Shown here one piece after another: positions 32,683 to 59,467 of a stretch of DNA of 64,000 nucleotides (positions are counted from its first letter, which is position 1; every line of letters begins with the position of its first letter). Source of the DNA: Novosphingobium barchaimii LL02 (GTDB taxonomy: Bacteria; Pseudomonadota; Alphaproteobacteria; Sphingomonadales; Sphingomonadaceae); contig NZ_KQ130461.1 in assembly GCF_001046635.1 (NCBI RefSeq), positions 27,299 to 91,298 on the forward strand, given 5' to 3'. The notes below the pieces were generated by a model, which was given only the letters and a program-made list of their open reading frames with translations, made no database searches and was not told where the DNA came from. The position numbers and the translations under genes are program-made.

Positions 32683-33726
32683 CTATCGTCCTGGCCCTTC
32701 CCGCGAACGATCGCGGTTCCTAGATCGTTCGCTCTGCCGCTTCCGCTCCATCGCGGCTACCGATCGCTCATGAATTGTAGGCGTTCGCCCTGCCCCCACA
32801 AATTGCCGCACCTGGTCGGCAAGCTGGCGGTCAGCTGGATCGCTGCTTGCCTCAAGGCGCTTGGCGGCGGCTAGATAGCGGTGTTGCGTCTCAGTCCATG
32901 CCTGCCGCCCGCGCACCACGAAATCCGGAGCGGTGGACCGCCCCGCCAGCTGGTCTCGCGCGGCCGCAGTGATCTTCTGATTGGCAAACGGTGCAGGTGC
33001 GGTGCCGGCCATGTAGCGCTGCCGCATCCGATTCAGGGCCATGCTTTGACCAGCTCGGCCGACACCGCGCGCTGCGCGAGGCGTTGCCTCGGCAGTAACC
33101 CCCCTCGCCCGCAATTCCTCGGCAAAGCGCTCCCGGTAATGATGCAGCGTTTGAGGTCGCGGGTTGAAGCGTTTCCCCGTGTCACCGCGCGCTGCAACCG
33201 TCACATGCACGTGAGGCCGTGGTGTGTCCGTATGCAGCGCCAGGACGTAATCCCACTCATGCCCGATCTCGCTCCGCGCGACTTCGCGCACCGCTGAAAG
33301 AACCTTGTCGGGGTCTGTGCCTGCCGGCATCGAAAAAACCATGCTCACGGCGGCTACGGTAGAATTGTCACGCCAATAGACAGGATCGCCCCAATCGCGC
33401 GCCAGCGCCGCCCGATCTTCCTTGTCAGTCAGAATGTCGCCATCGCGCGTTTCAAGCGGCACATCGCCTTTTCGGCCGATATAGTCGAAATGCGCAGCCG
33501 CGTGGTTCTTGCCCTTCGGCCTGCCCGTAACCTTGACCATGACCTCCGGAGCACGGCTGACAATGCGAGCAAGCCGCGCCCGGGTGCTCCCGCCCTGGCC
33601 TGCTCGCCTCGAACTAAGCGAGCGCAGCAACATGTCGGCGCCGCGCCTGTTCGGGTCGCTGGTCAGCTTTGGTTTGAACAGCGCGGCGAGCTGGCCCGCC
33701 TCAAAGCTGCTGTCAAAGTCGCTCAC
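32683..33726 (-). CDS. MOB-P-type relaxase
   Basis: 347 aa from the GTG at 33726, which has GGGAGG about 7 bases upstream and overlaps mobC by 14 bp. The metal-binding relaxase motif III is in LALHTDTPRPHVHVTVAARG (HxD...HxH). An upstream segment KNHAAAHFDYIGRKGD resembles the motif region of VirD2/MobA-like enzymes, where the catalytic Tyr is expected (Tyr in DYIG). The C-terminal third is basic. It would nick oriT beside mobC, attach to the 5' end and be led to VirD4. Confidence 0.88.
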   Translation of the reverse strand: MSDFDSSFEAGQLAALFKPKLTSDPNRRGADMLLRSLSSRRAGQGGSTRARLARIVSRAPEVMVKVTGRPKGKNHAAAHFDYIGRKGDVPLETRDGDILTDKEDRAALARDWGDPVYWRDNSTVAAVSMVFSMPAGTDPDKVLSAVREVARSEIGHEWDYVLALHTDTPRPHVHVTVAARGDTGKRFNPRPQTLHHYRERFAEELRARGVTAEATPRAARGVGRAGQSMALNRMRQRYMAGTAPAPFANQKITAAARDQLAGRSTAPDFVVRGRQAWTETQHRYLAAAKRLEASSDPADRQLADQVRQFVGAGRTPTIHERSVAAMERKRQSERSRNRDRSREGPGR

Positions 33727-34264
33727 CGGGCACCTCCCAATAGACAAGATCGGCCTTCGTGGCTGCACCGATACCTTCGACGGCCGCGCCGATCGCCGCG
33801 CGCAGGTCGTTGACCTTATGCAGCTCGCCGGCGATCTCCGCTGCATTGTCCGCCAGCGCCATCTTGTTCGCCGCTCGGGCGATCTGATTCACGTTGCGGC
33901 CAATGCGCTGTAACGCCTGACGGCAATTCAACAGCTCTTCGCGCAACTCGCGATCGACAGGCGCGGCAATGCCGATGTGTCGCCGCACAAGAGCCATCGC
34001 CCAGGTCGCCGGGGTCATGCGGCGCTCCTTTGCGCGATGGCGGATCACGGCCAGTTCGGTTTCGGTGGGCCGAAGATAAAGGCGGTGCTCGCCAGCGGCC
34101 TCGCGGTCGGCAACAGGCGCGGCCTCGATGGCCGCCCCGGACTGCCTGAGCACCGCGTCAACCAGCTGACGCATGAAGGGGCCGCGCCCTCCCCTCGTCT
34201 GCGCGAGCGCGTCGATCTTTGCGAGCTTGGCCGCCTCGATCTTGAAGCCCAGCGTCTTTTCCAT
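33713..34264 (-). CDS. mobC: MobC-type relaxosome protein
   Basis: 183 aa from the ATG at 34264. N-terminal ribbon-helix-helix-like part (TLGFKIEAAKLAKIDALAQTRGGRGPFMRQLVDAVLR, in parts). The MobC motif follows: LRPTETELAVIRHRAKERRM and LLNCRQALQRIGRNVNQIARAAN. MobC proteins bind oriT and help strand opening. The start codon lies inside the left arm of a 16-bp inverted repeat at oriT, so MobC may control its own expression. Confidence 0.88.
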   Translation of the reverse strand: MEKTLGFKIEAAKLAKIDALAQTRGGRGPFMRQLVDAVLRQSGAAIEAAPVADREAAGEHRLYLRPTETELAVIRHRAKERRMTPATWAMALVRRHIGIAAPVDRELREELLNCRQALQRIGRNVNQIARAANKMALADNAAEIAGELHKVNDLRAAIGAAVEGIGAATKADLVYWEVPGERL

Positions 34265-34375
34265 GTGGGGTAGGTATCTCCCAACCGTGAAGCGCGATCC
34301 GATAGGATTGAGCGTATCGGTTAACATTAGCCGCCGCAAGGCTTATCCTGCCATAAAGTAGATACCTACCCCACA
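34264..34375. other. oriT: Candidate origin of transfer (oriT)
   Basis: A 112-bp segment directly before mobC, bounded by perfect 16-bp inverted repeats (34264-34279 and 34360-34375, core GGGGTAGGTATCT). Inside it, plus-strand TATCCTG followed by C at 34344-34351 matches the nic core known for RP4 and Ti oriTs (YATCCTG|Y), so the cut is predicted between 34350 and 34351. The plus strand from 34351 upward would enter first, and the relaxase gene last. Confidence 0.72.
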
Positions 34376-36983: not shown

Positions 36984-37298
36984 TTAATCAGCCCCGCCCC
37001 TCGTCAGGATGCCCAGCCCCTCAGCGATCAGGTCCACCGAGTAGCGGGTTTCGCCATTGCTCTCGTAGCTGTTCTGGCGGACCCGTCCGGTGATGTGAAC
37101 GAGGTCGCCCTTGCCCAGATCAGCGGCGCGCTCTGCCAGCTGGCGGAAGAACGTCACACGGTTCCAGTGCGTATCGGTCTTCCATTCATCGCCATCCTTG
37201 CGGTTGTAGTTCGCGGCGACGGAAACGTGGGTGACTTTATCGGTCGTATCGACACTGCCAACGCGGCCGATGATCCGAAATTCAGCGATGTTCTGCAT
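36984..37298 (-). CDS. ssb: Single-stranded DNA-binding protein
   Basis: 104 aa from the ATG at 37298 with AAGGAGACT upstream; longer frames have no such site. OB fold with FRIIGRVGSVDTTDKVTHVSVAANYN and WNRVTFFRQLAERAADLGKGDLVHITGRV in parts. It lacks the long tail and acidic tip of housekeeping SSB. It would coat the incoming strand; ssb genes are usual in plasmid leading regions. Confidence 0.9.
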   Translation of the reverse strand: MQNIAEFRIIGRVGSVDTTDKVTHVSVAANYNRKDGDEWKTDTHWNRVTFFRQLAERAADLGKGDLVHITGRVRQNSYESNGETRYSVDLIAEGLGILTRGGAD

Positions 37299-49005: not shown

Positions 49006-49012
49006 GGGCTTT

Positions 49013-49282
49013 CCCTTCCTAATTGAGCCGAAGGCGATGACGGGTCATCGACTTCTGCCGAAAGCGGGCGACGCTGGGCCGGGGAATGCCGCAAACGGGG
49101 CCGATCAGGGGGGAGGGGGATCACCCGCCCTGCACGGAGCGCAGCGAAGGAAGGGCGGGGAAACCCGCCTGGTCGCCAAGCGGAGCCGCGCAGCGGCGGA
49201 GACGGTCTAGCCCTTGCGGCAGGGGGCAGGAACAGGCCCCAAACGCGACAAATCAGCGCGGCGGCTTGCCGCCTCAATCTGC
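49013..49282 (-). repeat. Leader repeat B, copy 1
   Basis: About 270 bp, largely matching 51048-51314. It includes GCGATGACGGGTCATCG, an inverted repeat near 49034-49050, and GC-rich hairpins. It fills the gap before the gene at 48757 (the 49006-49321 gap has no gene). Confidence 0.85.
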
Positions 49283-51036: not shown

Positions 51037-51047
51037 GTGCTGTTTTC

Positions 51048-51314
51048 CCTGCCTAGAATGGAGCCGAAGGCGATGACGGGTCATCGACTTCTGCCCAGCG
51101 GCGAGCAGGGCCGGGGAATGCCGCAAATCAGGGCCGATCAGGGGGGAGGGGAATCACCCGTCCTGCACGGAGCGAAGCGAAGGAAGGGCGGGGAAACCCG
51201 CCTGATCGCCAAGCGAGGCCGCATAGCGGCCGAGACGGTCCAGCCCTTGCGGCAGGGGGCAGGAACAGGCCCCGAAGTCGAACAGCGGGCGCGGCGGCAT
51301 TGCCGCCTCAATCT
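51048..51314 (-). repeat. Leader repeat B, copy 2
   Basis: Matches 49013-49282 closely, including GCCGAAGGCGATGACGGG and the ...GCGGCAGGGGGCAGG end. Precedes the 50776 gene. Confidence 0.85.
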
Positions 51315-53782: not shown

Positions 53783-54172
53783 TCAATATTCACTGGTTAG
53801 GAGAATGGTGAGCACGCGGGTTGTGGCATCGGGATTCCACGGTTCGGCGCTGCCAAATTCAAGATCGCGGTCGTAATAGTCGAACTTCCACATGACCGAG
53901 AGGGCTGGGCGCGTGCTGTCGTCAGTCCAGCGGGTATGCCATTGGCCGATCACATCACGATAAAGGAAACCGGCGTCATGCTCGCCGTGCGGGTCGTTGT
54001 CGGGTGTGAAATCCTCAAAGCCCTCGATCATCTTGAGAATGTCGGACTGCGTGTTCTCGTCCAGCGCCGCGATGCCTTGCGTAATCACGGTGCGACAAGT
54101 CACACCCATCGTTCGCCGCGCAATGTCGTTCAGCGCCGCGATGGTGGCGATCTGGTCAGTTGTCGCTTCCAT
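53783..54172 (-). CDS. DUF3768 protein with type A leader
   Basis: 129 aa from the ATG at 54172 (AAAGGAGTGAGGAAA upstream; the longer frame lies in the leader). IAALNDIARRTMGVTCRTVITQGIAAL and HDAGFLYRDVIGQWH match DUF3768, a family of plasmid proteins of unknown function. First gene of a unit running to 52469. One of three genes sharing leader A. Confidence 0.78.
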   Translation of the reverse strand: MEATTDQIATIAALNDIARRTMGVTCRTVITQGIAALDENTQSDILKMIEGFEDFTPDNDPHGEHDAGFLYRDVIGQWHTRWTDDSTRPALSVMWKFDYYDRDLEFGSAEPWNPDATTRVLTILLTSEY

Positions 54173-54418
54173 TTTCCTCACTCCTTTAGGCGAAGCCGCT
54201 GCCTGCGGCCTGCGGCTCTGACCCGCTGGCGAAGCGCGGGATGGGGAGGGGGAAGCAAAATCGATGGGAGTGGTGCGGGCGGCGCGTCTAGGGAGGCCCC
54301 GGCGCGCGGGAGCGCGCCGGAACTGGCCGAACTTGGCGTGCAACCCGGTCCTGTCGATTATGCTTCGGGAACGAAAGGGCGGGTGCCCTTGGTGTTCCCC
54401 CCGGTGGCAACTGCCACT
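54173..54418 (-). repeat. Leader repeat A, copy 1
   Basis: About 245 bp matching 57067-57307 and 59223-59467 at high identity. It ends with the ribosome-binding site TTTAGG/CCTAAAGGAG shared by all three genes. The distal end carries a palindrome variant. It accounts for most of the 54173-54500 gap, which has no gene. Confidence 0.88.
54403..54418. repeat. 16-bp palindrome, copy 9 (variant)
   Basis: GGTGGCAACTGCCACT: two changes from the perfect form, at the far end of leader A copy 1. Confidence 0.8.
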
Positions 54419-54500
54419 ACTGACGGGGCGCGGCCCTGGGCCGCTCGATCCTATGTGGCAGCTGACAGACTACTAGGCGCGCGGCCCTGGCCGCTCATTT

Positions 54501-55784
54501 TCAGCGCTCGCGGTCCTTTGATTTCTCGGCCGCCTGTGTCGGTGATTTGCCTTCGCGCAATGTTGCGGCGACATGCGCCTTTGCGCTTTCGACGATCTGC
54601 GCCAGCTGTTCCTTCGATGCGCCGCGCTCGGTAGCTGTGGCGACGCGCTTATCAATGGCCAGCTGGAATTGCGCGAACCTGGCATCGGCCCGGTTCTGCT
54701 CAGGCGAGTTTTTCTCGAATTGCGCGGCAAGGCGTAGATCAACCTGACTGACGCCGGGAGGCATGACTTGCAGACGTAGCACGCGATCGGCGGCCTGAAT
54801 GTCGCGGTCGGTCATTTTCGAAAGGAAATCAGCAGTGCCCGCGCTGATGGCGCGGACTCGTTGCAGCGGGTCCATGCCCTCGGACCAACTGACTTCGATT
54901 TGATGATAGCGGCGCTGTTCGATCAGTTGAAGGTGGTGCATCGGCCCTTTGGGATCACGGAAAAAGGCGAGTTCCTGCGCAGAACGGGCGGCTAGCTGGC
55001 GCATGTCAGCGGACGTTTCCGCGATCCGGTTAAGCTGCTCATACTGCCGCGACGCAACGGTTTGCGCAGTAGGTAAGTAACGGCTGATCTGATCCTTGGC
55101 TTGCTCGATGCTCATAGCGCGCCGTTCGCCAGCTGGCATGAGAGATTCCATCGAGGGCGGAAACGCGATGCCCGCTGGCCCGCGCGCTGGCTCGACGCGG
55201 CTCTGTTCGAGGGGCATGGCATCACGGATAACTTTGGCGAGGGAGGCGTGATTTCCGGTATGGAAGCTATCGCGGCTCGCCTCCATCCAGTCCTTCGGCC
55301 CCATTGCCTGGATCGAGACGAATTTTTCGGCCGCAAGGGAATGTAGCTGCAAGTGCAGCCGCATGGTACGACCATTGCCCTCACGGAACGGATGAACGGC
55401 ATTTAATTCGGAGATATGCCGTCCCATGGTATCGGCAAAGCGATCACGATCCATCGACTTGAGGGTTTGGAGGTCGGGCAGCTGCTTAAATTCGTGCTCC
55501 ATGCTGCGGGCAATGAAGTGCGCTCGCGCAAAAGTGCTGCCGGGTTTGCTTATGTCCACAGTCCGAAAGCGCCCCGCCCAATCATATACATCCTGAAACA
55601 GATGATTGTGCAGTTCGCGATACTCGCGCGCATTCGTCGCCGGCATGGCGCGCTGCACAATCAGCTCGCCATGCCGGACAACCGAGAAGAAAGCTTCTCG
55701 CTCCTTGAGAATATTATCGTCGCGGATTCCCAGCTTGTTCCGAAGAACGTCGCTGTTACGCCAGGTGTAAGGGTCGCTCACCAA
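54501..55784 (-). CDS. Fic-domain toxin (VbhT-like)
   Basis: 427 aa from a TTG, or 426 from the GTG at 55781. Residues 20-190 are a Fic domain with the AMP-transfer motif HPFREGNGRTMR near residue 143, and YRELHNHLFQDVYDWAGRFR before it. The middle and C-terminal parts are helical and end basic (SAKHVA-like SAKAHVAATLREGKSPTQAAEKSKDRER in parts). They could hold a secretion-signal region, as VbhT has a BID domain there, but I cannot identify one. Fic proteins attach AMP to target proteins such as gyrase. Paired with an antitoxin gene. Confidence 0.88.
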   Translation of the reverse strand: MVSDPYTWRNSDVLRNKLGIRDDNILKEREAFFSVVRHGELIVQRAMPATNAREYRELHNHLFQDVYDWAGRFRTVDISKPGSTFARAHFIARSMEHEFKQLPDLQTLKSMDRDRFADTMGRHISELNAVHPFREGNGRTMRLHLQLHSLAAEKFVSIQAMGPKDWMEASRDSFHTGNHASLAKVIRDAMPLEQSRVEPARGPAGIAFPPSMESLMPAGERRAMSIEQAKDQISRYLPTAQTVASRQYEQLNRIAETSADMRQLAARSAQELAFFRDPKGPMHHLQLIEQRRYHQIEVSWSEGMDPLQRVRAISAGTADFLSKMTDRDIQAADRVLRLQVMPPGVSQVDLRLAAQFEKNSPEQNRADARFAQFQLAIDKRVATATERGASKEQLAQIVESAKAHVAATLREGKSPTQAAEKSKDRER

Positions 55785-56045
55785 TCATGCAGCAAGTTTC
55801 TGGCGGGACAGAACATCACGGTTGTAGTCCTGCGCCAGACCAATCGCCACATCGACGGGAATTTGGGTTTCGACCAACAGCAAACAAAAAGAGTGGTCAT
55901 CCGAAACCAATTCAAGTCCTTCAATCTTGCAATTTGCGATTGCTTCGCAATAAGCTGCCATCACGTCAGGAATGTCTTCCTGCCGACGCGGCTCATACCC
56001 CATCGCCTTGATGCGATTCCTGTAGGTGTCGATGATATTTTCCAT
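55785..56045 (-). CDS. VbhA-like Fic antitoxin
   Basis: 86 aa from the ATG at 56045. The helix AYCEAIANCKIEGLELVSDD matches the class I Fic inhibitor helix of VbhA (consensus S/TxxxE[G/N]); the Glu-Gly is kept, while the Ser/Thr reads Asn. This helix blocks ATP binding of the partner. Its stop lies directly before the fic start, so the two are coupled. Confidence 0.8.
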   Translation of the reverse strand: MENIIDTYRNRIKAMGYEPRRQEDIPDVMAAYCEAIANCKIEGLELVSDDHSFCLLLVETQIPVDVAIGLAQDYNRDVLSRQKLAA

Positions 56046-56193
56046 TTTGCACCTAAAAACGACCTGCTCCCGCCCATAGTTAACATGTCGGGATTTGTAT
56101 ATAAACCACATTGAGTAGCCCCCCATATTTCACTTTCCTGAAATGAGACGCCGCGCAAGCGCGGCGTCTCGTGCATTTTGCGGGGCGGGGCAT

Positions 56194-57066
56194 TCAATCC
56201 GCTTGGTCGGTCATCATCGCCAACAGGTAGTCGGCGGCGTTCTGCGCCTCGCGGGCTGCCTCAAAAATGGCGCGCTTGTCGTTGCGGAGCGCGGTCAACC
56301 AGTGCTCGATATACGCGGCATGGTCTTCGCGTTCCTCGACCTTGAAACCGACAATCGCGCCGATGAAGGATGCGCCCAGCTCGGCCACGAGTTCGTCCCT
56401 CGCATAGTCGGCGCGACTCGTTGAAATCAGGGTTTTTCGGTTGAGGCGGCTTTCATGCCCTGCATGATGCACGGCCTCATGCGCAAGCGTGGCATAGTAG
56501 TCGTCGGCGGAATGGAACGCTTCAAAAGCGGGCATTTGGATATAGTCGTCGCGGGTGTGGTAATAGGCTTGCGATCCGCCGATGCGAACGGTTGCGTCGA
56601 TGCGAGAGAACATCACTTCAAGCTCAACGTCGCGGGTTTCGGGATTGGTGATGATCGGGGCGGGCGCGGGATATTTGCCGTCCAGTCCTTCGACCTGATC
56701 GGCATTGAAAACCGTGTATCGTTTCAAGAACGGAATGGCGCGCTCGTTGTCCGTCTCGGAGTCTTTCACGACAAGCTTGTTGGCATAGACAATGGTGGTT
56801 CCCTTGCTGCCCTTCCTGACATTGCCGCCCAGCTCCAACGCCTGTTTGAAGGTCAGCCAATAGGGCGAGGCGAAGCCCTGACGCATAGCGCTGGCCCAAA
56901 GGCTGAGGACGTTGATCCCACGATAGGCGACCCCATTGTGCCGGAGCGGAATGGTCGGCCCACCGCTCCACGGCTTCACCCACGGCTTGGTGCCCGCTTC
57001 CAGCATCGCAAGAATGTCGTCGGTGACGGCCTGATAAATGTCGATCCGGTTCGTTTCCTTAGCCAT
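56194..57066 (-). CDS. ardC: ArdC-type antirestriction protein
   Basis: 290 aa. N-terminal ssDNA-binding domain (MAKETNRIDIYQAVTDDILAMLEAGTKPWVKPW in parts; PLRHNGVAYRGINVLSLW) and C-terminal zincin-like domain with HEAVHHAGHESRLNR (HExxH). DELVAELGASFIGA provides the third ligand region. ArdC proteins protect incoming plasmid DNA from restriction. The gene has leader A and lies in the region predicted to enter the recipient early. Confidence 0.92.
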   Translation of the reverse strand: MAKETNRIDIYQAVTDDILAMLEAGTKPWVKPWSGGPTIPLRHNGVAYRGINVLSLWASAMRQGFASPYWLTFKQALELGGNVRKGSKGTTIVYANKLVVKDSETDNERAIPFLKRYTVFNADQVEGLDGKYPAPAPIITNPETRDVELEVMFSRIDATVRIGGSQAYYHTRDDYIQMPAFEAFHSADDYYATLAHEAVHHAGHESRLNRKTLISTSRADYARDELVAELGASFIGAIVGFKVEEREDHAAYIEHWLTALRNDKRAIFEAAREAQNAADYLLAMMTDQAD

Positions 57067-57307
57067 TTTTCACTCCTTTAGGCGAAGCCGCTGCCTGCGG
57101 CCTGCGGCTCTGACCCGCTGGCGAAGCGCGGGATGGGGAGGGGGAAGCAAAATCGATGGGAGTGGTGCGGGCGGCACGGCTAGGGAGGCTCCGGCGCTCG
57201 CGCGCGCCGGAACTGGCCGAACTTGGCGTGCAACCCGGTCCTGTCGATTATGCTTCGGGAACGAAAGGGCGGGTGCCCTTGGTGTTCCCCCGGTGGCAGC
57301 TGCCACC
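57067..57307 (-). repeat. Leader repeat A, copy 2
   Basis: Matches 54173-54418 and 59223-59467. On the minus strand it reads palindrome, then a CATAAT box, then a GC-rich structured stretch, then AAAGGAGTGAAAA and the ardC ATG. The 57067-57446 gap has no gene. Confidence 0.9.
57292..57307. repeat. 16-bp palindrome, copy 10
   Basis: Perfect copy at the upstream end of leader A copy 2. Confidence 0.92.
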
Positions 57308-57380
57308 ACCGGCAACGCGCGGCCCTAGCCGCTCATTATACGCGGCCGATTTTACCGGCTGCGTTCTGTAAAATGGGTGC

Positions 57381-57396
57381 GGTGGCAGCTGCCACC
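57381..57396. repeat. 16-bp palindrome, copy 11
   Basis: Perfect copy, extended by GC/GC, 89 bp from copy 10 and close to the end of the ParB-like gene. Confidence 0.92.
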
Positions 57397-57446
57397 GCCC
57401 CGCAAGTTTGCGGGGAGCGCGGGAGTGAAGCGCGCTCCCCATGCCG

Positions 57447-59222
57447 TCATGCCGCTTGGCTTTCGCTATCAGCGGCATCGGGCAAGGCAGAGGGTCGAAG
57501 GGCGGGGGGCAGGATGCGCCGCCCCGCAAGGCGCTCGTTGACCGTCAAGGCAAGATCAGAGCGCTTCATGGTCTGGCAATTCTCTGCGGCGTCGTTGCCG
57601 CAACCTTCGGCCAGCAGCTTCAAGAGCGTGGCCTTGCTAAGCTGGTCATAGAATACCTGATTGGGTTCCCACTTGTCGGCCATGTCGATCTGCGCGGCCC
57701 CGACGATCTGCGCCAGCTGGCGGTCGCGGTCGCTATGGAACGAAAGGCTCGTGATCTGCGAGGCCACGCAGTAGGCCAGCAGCCGCAATTTCGCTTCGCT
57801 GTCCATCTGGCGCATGTCGTCCAGCGTGGGTGTCTCGGCCAAGCGGGCAAGATCGGCCCCCGCGATTTCGTCAATGTCGGCAATCGTGGAATGGCCCATG
57901 ATCGCCTCGTCAACATGGAAGCGGTTCTTCTCGGCGGTGATTTCGGCGGCTTGTTGCCACGAATAGGAGTTGCCGCGAACCTGCCCCAATAGGCCCGTCA
58001 AGAGCACGTCCAGCGCCAGCTCCGGGTCGCTGGCAAGGGCTTCCCGAACCGCCATCGTGCGGATGCCGCCCAGCTGATCCATGACCTTCTGCGAGTAGTC
58101 GGGCCGGGGAGGCTTGGGGCCATCGGCGGCGGTGCCCTTGGCGCTGCGCGTGAACGCAACCTGTTCGATACCGTCATGCCCGATGAAGACGATAAGCGAG
58201 TGCTCGGCCTTCTGCTCGGCGGTGAAGACGCGGCAAGCCGATACGATAGCGTCCTGCTTGCGGGTCAGGGCGCGCAACTCGTCGTCATAGTCGTGCTCGT
58301 CCTCGTCCACCTCGCTTTCCCGCTTGGCGATTGCCGCCTCGATCTCGACCAGCTGCGCGGTTTCTTCCTCGGTCGGATGGCGCTCGCCAGCGGGTTCCAG
58401 ATGGCCGCGCATCCAGTAGGAATCAGGCCGGTAGAGCTGCCCTTCTGCATCGCGCCAGCCATCTTCGCGCGCCGCCTTGGCGATGGCGTCGAGCCGATCT
58501 TGCACAAGGTCCATGACAAGGCCCGCATCATCGCAATAGCGACGTTCTCCGAAAAGATCGGTGGTGAAGGTGCCGCCTGCGGCGCAATAGGCTTCCTCGC
58601 CTACAATGCGAAAATGCTTGTCGGTATCGGCAACCTTCTCCTGGGTGAGCATGGCGCGGATTTGGTGGGCGTTGTCGCCGGTGCGCTTGAAAACCTCAAG
58701 CTGGCGGTCCTGATCGTCTGTCAGCGCGAAAGCCTGCGCCGCGCCCATGCCGATTTCGTCTTTCTGGAAGGCTTTGAGAATGGTCGGGTGCAGCGCCGCC
58801 AGCTTCAACACGCGGCGGACATAGGCGGGGGAGACGCCGAACGATGCTGCAACATCGTCAACGTCTTTGCCGCTGTCGATGATCGCCCGATAGGCGGCGA
58901 TGGCATCGGCGGGGTGCATGTCCTCACGCTGCGCGTTCTCGGCAAGAGAGATTTCCAGCGCCTCGTCCTTGCTGCGGATTTCAACGGGAACCTCGAAAGT
59001 GCCGGGGATGGTCTTTGCCTTCTGCAACAGCTTCAAGGCCCGGTAGCGCCGCCCTCCAGCGCAAATCTTGATCTTGCCGTCCTCATCATAGCCGATCAGG
59101 TTTTGCAGCACGCCCCGCGCCTGAATGTCGGCTGCGAGGGCTTCAATTTCCTTGGGCTTCACCTTCCGCACGTTGAGGTCGGAAAGCGCCAGCTTGTTCA
59201 GTTGGATGGTCTGGATGGTCAT
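57447..59222 (-). CDS. Large ParB/RepB-family protein
   Basis: 591 aa. Residues 5-110 are a ParB CTPase domain (LSDLNVRKVKPKEIEALAADIQARGVLQNLIGY; CAGGRRYRALKLL; LAENAQREDMHPADAIAAYRAI, in parts) and 115-165 the DNA-binding HTH (DVDDVAASFGVSPAYVRRVLKLAAL). The remaining 400 residues are unlike partition ParB and have no known domain. Such long ParB-like proteins are common on conjugative plasmids and may be regulators or antirestriction factors. Shares leader A with ardC and the DUF3768 gene. Confidence 0.88.
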   Translation of the reverse strand: MTIQTIQLNKLALSDLNVRKVKPKEIEALAADIQARGVLQNLIGYDEDGKIKICAGGRRYRALKLLQKAKTIPGTFEVPVEIRSKDEALEISLAENAQREDMHPADAIAAYRAIIDSGKDVDDVAASFGVSPAYVRRVLKLAALHPTILKAFQKDEIGMGAAQAFALTDDQDRQLEVFKRTGDNAHQIRAMLTQEKVADTDKHFRIVGEEAYCAAGGTFTTDLFGERRYCDDAGLVMDLVQDRLDAIAKAAREDGWRDAEGQLYRPDSYWMRGHLEPAGERHPTEEETAQLVEIEAAIAKRESEVDEDEHDYDDELRALTRKQDAIVSACRVFTAEQKAEHSLIVFIGHDGIEQVAFTRSAKGTAADGPKPPRPDYSQKVMDQLGGIRTMAVREALASDPELALDVLLTGLLGQVRGNSYSWQQAAEITAEKNRFHVDEAIMGHSTIADIDEIAGADLARLAETPTLDDMRQMDSEAKLRLLAYCVASQITSLSFHSDRDRQLAQIVGAAQIDMADKWEPNQVFYDQLSKATLLKLLAEGCGNDAAENCQTMKRSDLALTVNERLAGRRILPPALRPSALPDAADSESQAA

Positions 59223-59467
59223 TTTTCACTCCTTTAGGCGAAGCCGCTGCCTGCGGCCTGCGGCTCTGACCCGCTGGCGAAGCGCGGGATGGGGAGGGGG
59301 AAGCAAAATCGATGGGAGTGGTGCGGGCGGCGCGACTAGGGAGGCCCCGGCGCGCGTGAGCGCGCCGGAACTGGCCGAACTTGTCGAGCAACCCGGTCCT
59401 GTCGATTATGCTTCGGGAACGAAAGGGCGGGTGCCCTTGGTGTTCCCCCCCGGTGGCAGCTGCCACC
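59223..59467 (-). repeat. Leader repeat A, copy 3
   Basis: Matches copies 1 and 2 closely, and ends with a perfect palindrome. Confidence 0.9.
59452..59467. repeat. 16-bp palindrome, copy 12
   Basis: Perfect copy at the upstream end of leader A copy 3. Confidence 0.92.

Follow-up and report, generated by a model that had tools for sequence, protein, structure and literature searches.

Repeated long-hairpin leaders before antirestriction and establishment genes of sphingomonad plasmids, candidates for promoters that act on single-stranded DNA

In the leading region of the F plasmid, the Frpo stem-loops drive early and transient expression (PMC9849209; here and below, cited papers are represented by parts of their text). 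Repeated leaders of IncI1 plasmids precede ssb, parB-like, psi and antirestriction genes (PMC3817090). The experiments on single-stranded promoters described in PMC11541004, PMC9849209 and PMC7690428 concern F and ColIb-P9, and PMC11541004 also describes a large search for Frpo-like promoters. Here we analyse a leader that stands in three copies on the minus strand of a 64,000-nt stretch of Novosphingobium barchaimii LL02 DNA (contig NZ_KQ130461.1, positions 27,299 to 91,298; hereafter, the window), at 54173-54418, 57067-57307 and 59223-59467. The leaders lie on a conjugative sphingomonad plasmid and are members of a widespread group of long DNA hairpins, which may let presumed plasmid-protecting genes be read while an incoming plasmid is still single-stranded.

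The three copies are 96.7-98.1% identical in pairwise comparison (215-nt core; gap columns, 0-4, left out) and precede the genes for a DUF3768 protein, an ArdC-like protein and a long ParB-like protein (Table 1), which confirms a preliminary description made from the sequence alone. That description let each leader run from a palindrome through a CATAAT box and a GC-rich stretch to TAAAGGAGTGA. All of these parts are found, and the palindrome proved to lie outside the conserved element. Specifically, the element consists of two adjacent hairpins, hp1 and hp2, and a downstream part with hairpins hp3, which is expected in the transcript, and hp4. The 16-bp palindrome GGTGGCAGCTGCCACC sits at the upstream edge of the leaders, in one of them with two mismatches, and occurs at 12 places in the window with at most two mismatches. 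Because it is repeated 12 times and the aligned diverged copies (43 unique of 52) show no conservation upstream of GGGGAACACC, we let the element start at hp1. As a part of the element the palindrome was rejected, since outside class 1 (the window type) it is not conserved in the aligned copies; it could be a terminator-like element or else an operator. Beside parB2 of plasmid pLB1 it is followed by a run of T and looks terminator-like.

The structure of the leader is supported by covariation. Between positions 35 and 146, a profile of the leader also hits the leader's opposite strand, with E-values as low as 1.6e-14. Of the 62 pairs in an alignment of 33 sequences, 27 show changes on both sides, compared with 17.3 ± 1.9 in shuffles, and the covariation score of 0.212 (0.095 in shuffles) is reached in none of 500 shuffles. 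Slid versions of the structure never exceed 12 pairs or a score of 0.069. One measure, the number of further standard pair types, shows no excess (49 versus 47.8, reached in 189 of 500 shuffles). Helix hp3 changes on both sides in three of its four pairs (alignment A1), while hp1 is nearly invariant in the 33 rows, which comprise classes 1 and 2; its compensatory version, GGAAAAC/GTTTTCC, is held by class 4. The base of hp2 forms in all 43 unique leaders when they are folded as DNA of the presumed transferred strand (T-strand), and its inner part is variable. The compensating changes that the preliminary description had proposed to look for are present, and the structure persists in diverged copies. 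The computations establish that antirestriction and establishment genes are preceded by a conserved, structured leader.

A sensitive DNA search of PLSDB located the leader at 99 places in 42 plasmid records, a recurrence far beyond chance. Sphingomonad genera account for 41 of the records, and the remaining one, pLB1, is labelled uncultured bacterium. The best places reach 95-100% identity in 23 records, 80-90% in one and 60-80% in 18. We sort the leaders into four classes. Class 1 is the window type, and class 2 comprises diverged versions on plasmids. Class 3 is shorter and frequently found on contigs the size of a chromosome, and class 4 is marked by GGAAAAC..GTTTTCC in hp1. The covariance model R1, for which 33 class 1 and 2 sequences were used, matches 56 of 397 genomes of the family Sphingomonadaceae (37 of 96 genera), 19 of 296 genomes drawn from the order (18 of the same family) and 10 of 385 drawn from the class (nine outside the family). 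For a wider model, R2, RNAalifold gave only seven pairs on the underlying alignment A4, so R2 is mainly a sequence model; it matches 15 of 372 genomes from the class and six of 299 from the phylum, of which 14 and five, respectively, lie outside the family. Many of the matches outside the sphingomonad family are weak.

The genes behind the leader recur as well. In the fetched loci, R1 gives 109 matches (94 unique sequences, many near-identical), and the first recognised gene within 700 nt downstream encodes a DUF3768 protein in 54, a ParB-like protein in 22 and ArdC in 20, together 96 of the 109. The 13 matches with none include two antisense echoes of other elements (L092, L035). The references were five window and class 3 proteins, so that other downstream genes could not be recognised. 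A short open reading frame (ORF) is often first behind the leader in classes 2 and 3. Near the more distant matches, 20 proteins were run against Pfam. They include ArdA at four matches (L114, L116, L142, L158; 2.9e-6 to 1.9e-44) and ArdC at three (L125, L129, L136); below the cut-off, they include a ParB-like protein at one (L147) and SprT-like proteins at two, both from sphingomonads (L133, L161). Other families appear at three (an N6 methylase at L140, a reverse transcriptase at L159 and a sub-threshold phage family at L157), and seven of the 20 proteins have no Pfam family. By eye, the L157 protein is ArdA-like. Thus the weaker relatives outside the sphingomonad family have ArdA, ArdC or ParB-like genes downstream where a gene is recognised, and on other sphingomonad plasmids diverged relatives precede the same genes as in the window, as the preliminary description had suggested looking for.

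That description also proposed a shared promoter or structured RNA leader that places these genes in one regulon. A structured regulatory leader linking the genes is well supported; a gene-direction promoter at CATAAT is not. As a −10 element, CATAAT has no −35 element at usable spacing by eye, and gene-strand promoter scores are low and not enriched. Among 37 representatives, neither the gene strand of the element (mean z 0.13) nor the 120 nt upstream (mean z 0.23) shows enrichment for E. coli-type promoters, from which sphingomonad promoters may differ.

The best promoter-like pair, TTGGCG or TTGTCG and GATTAT separated by 17 nt, lies within hp2 on the strand opposite to the genes. In the folded stem of the window copies, one base of the −10 box is unpaired and the template arm is the gene-side arm. 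The pattern TTGNNN-N16/17-NATTNT is present on the T-strand in 40 of 43 leaders, and in 35 of 43 T-strand folds at least four of the six bases of the −35 hexamer are paired with the gene-side arm. In the promoter scan (37 representatives; figures by class are from the 34 listed), the top T-strand match of 23 of 26 class 1 and 2 representatives is a TTG- or TTA-type hexamer followed after 16-17 nt by [TG]ATTNT; two of the three misses are shortened copies. The leader sequences are related, so these counts are not independent.

The strand on which the pair lies is probably the one that enters the recipient. A nic-like motif, AAGGCTTATCCTG followed by CC, marks a putative origin of transfer (oriT) on the plus strand. 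It contains TATCCTG, which we take to resemble the MOBP nic consensus, and pLB1 carries TATCCCG at the matching site. TATCCTG is unspecific (seven occurrences on the plus strand of the window, two on the minus strand), so the argument rests on its place beside mobC and on the matching pLB1 site. With the motif on the plus strand beside mobC, the plus strand would be transferred rightwards and the leaders would enter after 20-25 kb; they lie 19.8, 22.7 and 24.9 kb from the motif and do not adjoin oriT. In tblastn searches with pLB1 proteins, the genes of the type IV secretion system lie on the plus strand (20.2-30.7 kb), and parB2, parA and ssb on the minus strand (34.5-37.3 kb); the leaders are on the side of the motif away from the relaxase and the secretion genes. 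The relaxase is typically on the lagging side (PMC11541004). The arrangement suggests that the plus strand is both the T-strand and the template of all three leader genes. The element and a MOBP relaxase are co-directional on all 18 contigs with both (10 close pLB1 relatives, eight of class 2), a tally of contigs that have both a PF03432 match and an element found by R1 or BLAST, very long contigs excepted. Of the long contigs left out, one is opposite (G274:C1), two have relaxases in both directions (G008:C1, G357:C1) and one agrees (G386:C1). Elements found by R2 only are also outside the tally, for example on the long contig G001:C1, where the relaxase matches point the other way.

Wobble pairs and folding energies lean towards plus-strand DNA as the folded strand of hp2, without amounting to proof. 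With a strand-neutral choice of pairs (20 of the 33 representatives), the non-Watson-Crick pairs of hp2 helices b and c, read on the gene strand, are 25 A.C versus five G.T. Such an excess of A.C on the gene strand means mostly G.T wobble on the T-strand. At fourfold sites of the window genes, the gene strand has more T than A, which gives no sign of a general bias towards A. With DNA parameters, the T-strand folds better in 33 of 33 representatives (chosen from 80, after 14 of 94 unique sequences without landmarks had been dropped; the cut between hp2 and the rest is misplaced in at least one row, L001). As sole proof, the folding energy was rejected, because shuffles give a large part of the effect and the downstream part behaves alike. 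Two other counts were set aside. A wobble count by local arm alignment (hp2, 31 A.C versus nine G.T; hp4, 23 versus six) conflicts with the alignment-based count and is unreliable, and a pair table that allowed T-strand wobble in the choice of pairs was biased and was replaced by the strand-neutral count.

Table 1. Positions of the leaders, their parts and associated features in the window
Feature	Position	Strand	Other copies	Evidence or remark
Leader copy 1, conserved element, before DUF3768	54178-54402	-		model R1, 202.3 bits
Leader copy 2, before ArdC	57070-57292	-		model R1, 195.9 bits
Leader copy 3, before ParB-like gene	59226-59450	-		model R1, 200.9 bits
hp1, GGGAAC..AAGGGC / GCCCTT..GTTCCC	54367-54399 (copy 1)		57257-57289, 59415-59447	folds
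hp2, long imperfect hairpin	54252-54366 (copy 1)		57144-57256, 59300-59414	about 115 nt
-35-like TTGGCG, inside hp2	54333-54338	+	57223-57228 (TTGGCG), 59381-59386 (TTGTCG)	
-10-like GATTAT	54356-54361	+	57246-57251, 59404-59409	spacer 17
hp3, CCCGC..GCGGG	54222-54240		57114-57132, 59270-59288	downstream part
hp4, AGCCGC..GCGGCT	54194-54217		57086-57109, 59242-59265	beside ribosome-binding site
TAAAGGAGTGA, ribosome-binding site common to copies	54178-54188 (copy 1)	-		
DUF3768 protein	53783-54172	-		PF12599, 9e-32
ArdC-like antirestriction protein	56194-57066	-		PF08401, 6.9e-40; PF18818, 8.5e-43
Long ParB-like protein, 591 aa	57447-59222	-		PF17762, 5.3e-8; PF02195, 6.1e-7
Nic-like motif AAGGCTTATCCTG and CC, putative oriT	34338-34352	+		cut between 34350 and 34351
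virD2 relaxase	32692-33726	-		tblastn with pLB1 proteins
mobC	33716-34264	-		tblastn with pLB1 proteins
ssb, putative leading region	36987-37298	-		tblastn with pLB1 proteins; same direction as leader genes
Palindrome GGTGGCAGCTGCCACC, at most 2 mismatches	27129, 32396, 34386, 34693, 37515, 37650, 49295, 52441, 54403, 57292, 57381, 59452			

Built on computed features (the copies, their structure and covariation, the pair of classes 1 and 2 with its spacing, the gene set and the strand geometry), the best reading for classes 1 and 2 is that the leaders are a new Frpo-like family of single-stranded-DNA promoters, a reading we hold tentatively and rate at a little less than an even chance. As the plus strand enters the recipient, each leader would fold into hp1 and hp2, and the folded hp2 stem would rebuild a double-stranded promoter from its two boxes. 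With the gene-side arm as template, RNA polymerase would move from the loop to the base of the stem and on into the gene. Opening would be eased by the unpaired −10 base and by a template that is single-stranded at the foot of the stem. The recipient would thus make antirestriction and establishment proteins before it has a second strand; on double-stranded DNA the same promoter would face away from the gene, which would end the burst. We infer that polymerase would bind and start at this pair and that expression would be early and transient.

A number of results weigh against this reading. The T-strand pair is found in none of the eight class 3 representatives listed, though these keep hp1 and the base of hp2, and relatives outside the family show no −35 element by eye. 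Enrichment of T-strand pairs over shuffles is modest (mean z 0.98; 24% of the 37 representatives below p 0.05), the predicted start falls within a run of C, and in eight of 43 folds the −35 box is outside the described stem position. In helix a of hp2 the wobble bias is reversed (five A.C, 10 G.T, eight of the latter at one register-uncertain pair), and the pooled A.C:G.T counts, 34:16 in hp1 and hp2 versus 10:13 in hp3 and hp4, differ with a Fisher p of 0.07 uncorrected for relatedness. The downstream part also folds better as T-strand (27 of 33), and shuffled sequence reproduces part of the energy effect, nearly all of it for hp2 with RNA parameters (−5.88 versus −5.44). On one Paracoccus plasmid the element is opposite to the relaxase. 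A relaxase search near class 3 elements on chromosome-sized contigs, which covered MOBH and MOBP, found MOBH in none of 17 genomes, and MOBP matches in seven of the 17 were on other contigs or more than 300 kb away. In the same promoter scan, the best match of F Frpo is on the gene-proximal arm and that of the present leaders on the gene-distal arm, a comparison to the scan's own match and not to the published F boxes.

A second repeated leader family bears on the same question. Its two copies, at 49010-49280 and 51044-51314 on the minus strand, are 88% identical and precede an 82-aa ORF and a small ORF with a DUF4942 gene. This family is found in 55 plasmid records. In seven fetched stretches from elsewhere, ArdC or an ArdC-like zincin is downstream in four (L164, L166, L168, L169); the others have DUF3768 (L167), an unnamed gene (L163) and no annotation (L165). 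It folds as another long hairpin, and 10 of 72 pairs change on both sides among nine sequences. It also counts against the promoter reading, as it lacks a sigma-70-like pair: no promoter score on either strand exceeds 4.0, compared with 5.4-9.5 for the T-strand pair of those class 1 and 2 representatives that have one. Structure before the same genes without the pair supports a shared theme and weakens the sigma-70 pair as its general key. The wider proposal, a possibility to which we give somewhat more doubt than credence, is that such leaders may form a superfamily of single-strand-sensing gene switches on alphaproteobacterial conjugative elements, unrelated to Frpo in sequence, in which T-strand hairpins would form fork-like promoters read from loop to stem base before genes for ArdA, ArdC, DUF3768, SprT-like and ParB-like proteins. 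A single plasmid would then carry two or more structural families of such switches next to each other.

The main rival, which we regard as unlikely but serious, is a structured RNA leader, in which a conventional promoter upstream of hp1 would produce an RNA whose folding into hp1-hp4 would regulate translation or termination of the gene, perhaps through a plasmid protein. Compensatory change is blind to the strand and fits RNA and single-stranded DNA alike; hp3 and hp4 together with the ribosome-binding site make a compact 5' leader; and coding G.U is tolerated in hp4 (13 cells, beside 10 A.C). Both class 3 and the second leader family are structured without a −35 element, as an RNA leader could be. 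However, conservation ends at hp1, and the 120 nt beyond it carry no enrichment of E. coli-type promoters. In an RNA, the A.C pairs of hp2 helices b and c would make for a weaker helix, and no Rfam family matches the leader. Specifically, no Rfam family reaches the gathering score in the window, and relaxed E-values with Rfam 15 gave one sub-threshold suhB match, in L106, and one sub-threshold match to a plant microRNA family, at 57527-57660, which is outside the leaders.

A single-strand initiation site, at which the hairpins would load primase or polymerase for the complementary strand and gene control would be secondary, shares the T-strand geometry of a single-stranded promoter, and Frpo has been described as both promoter and primer site (PMC7690428). 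We consider it improbable as the main function, because it leaves unexplained why each copy stands just before the start codon of the same few genes. Still less probable is a double-stranded operator regulon like that of CUP and ArdK, with a plasmid repressor bound to the repeated leader or to the palindrome. Repeats before several genes and the 12 palindromes would suit it, but beyond class 1 the aligned copies do not conserve the palindrome, long compensatory stems are needless for an operator, and no gene-direction promoter was found.

The copies have also been made alike by events within plasmids. All three are 100% identical in pLB1 and in G117, and those of G273 differ by no or one substitution; between the four class 1 plasmids compared there are 0-6 differences (97-100% identity). 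The copies are thus homogenised within a plasmid of the pLB1 type. To this extent the recent duplication that the preliminary description had weighed against a shared function is borne out; as a full account it fails. In class 2, identity among the copies of a single plasmid is 77-93%. Same-gene leaders across plasmids are on average closer (86.5% in 18 comparisons) than the different leaders within a plasmid (82.2% in 12 comparisons); G175:C12 is an exception. Since the class 2 copies of a plasmid, 7-23% apart, keep the structure, and covariation already contradicts it, recombinational duplication without shared function is hardly credible despite the identical copies.

Several neighbouring features were noted along the way. 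A Fic-domain protein (PF02661; 54501-55784) is encoded inside the leader-gene cluster of the window and stands behind DUF3768 or ArdC in many relatives. On two chromosome-sized contigs (L098, L101), a class 3 element is followed by a short ORF and DUF3768, and neighbouring ORFs by eye resemble restriction-modification, SSB and other defence genes. In L096 (G474:C5), the three copies match over 158, 149 and 121 nt, each being shortened within the hairpin; this may reflect real deletions or an effect of the hairpin on assembly.

If the leaders do act as single-stranded promoters, early expression from single strands extends to a large group of environmental plasmids, R1 and R2 provide sequence and structure models for finding such leaders, and DUF3768 and SprT-like proteins become candidate establishment or antirestriction factors. 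If they act as RNA instead, they are a structured RNA tied to antirestriction genes, without a matching family in Rfam 15. In the main text of PMC11541004, the words Sphingo, DUF3768 and Alphaproteobacteria are absent, and a literature search to which most subscription papers were closed returned nothing on DUF3768 or on single-stranded promoters together with Sphingomonas.

Among the plasmids compared, pLB1 (AB244976) has the same three leaders before the same genes, and its gene table, which is incomplete, lists no such leader. The CUP elements of IncN plasmids are likewise a conserved upstream sequence, common to ardB, ardK and repA (PMC6289460), but they are described as binding sites of ArdK (PMC6289460), whereas the present leaders are long compensatory hairpins. 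Sequence homology to known Frpo or ssi elements was not found: the leader search gives only sphingomonad-type plasmids and pLB1, and in a direct comparison, made with F, the best R2 match in a 20-kb F stretch is at chance level (E = 0.96), though it lies inside the Frpo1 repeat. The present leaders are also shorter than Frpo and ssi, and for them a single-stranded promoter function is a computational prediction. The resemblance is one of organisation, in which F is the nearest known case. Like Frpo and ssi of F and ColIb-P9, they are repeated non-coding leaders of a leading region, with a stem-loop that carries −35- and −10-like boxes in the transferred strand. A stem that rebuilds the two boxes is present in the copies of the window and in the majority of class 1 and 2 leaders, and absent from class 3. 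Judged from the putative nic site and the side of the relaxase, the leaders are in the leading region and the T-strand is the gene template; to the latter, the Paracoccus plasmid is an exception. F has ssb and a long ParB-like gene behind its leaders, its Frpo1 and Frpo2 are themselves homologous repeats (89% over 559 columns), and in the same scan the best promoter match of Frpo is also on the T-strand.

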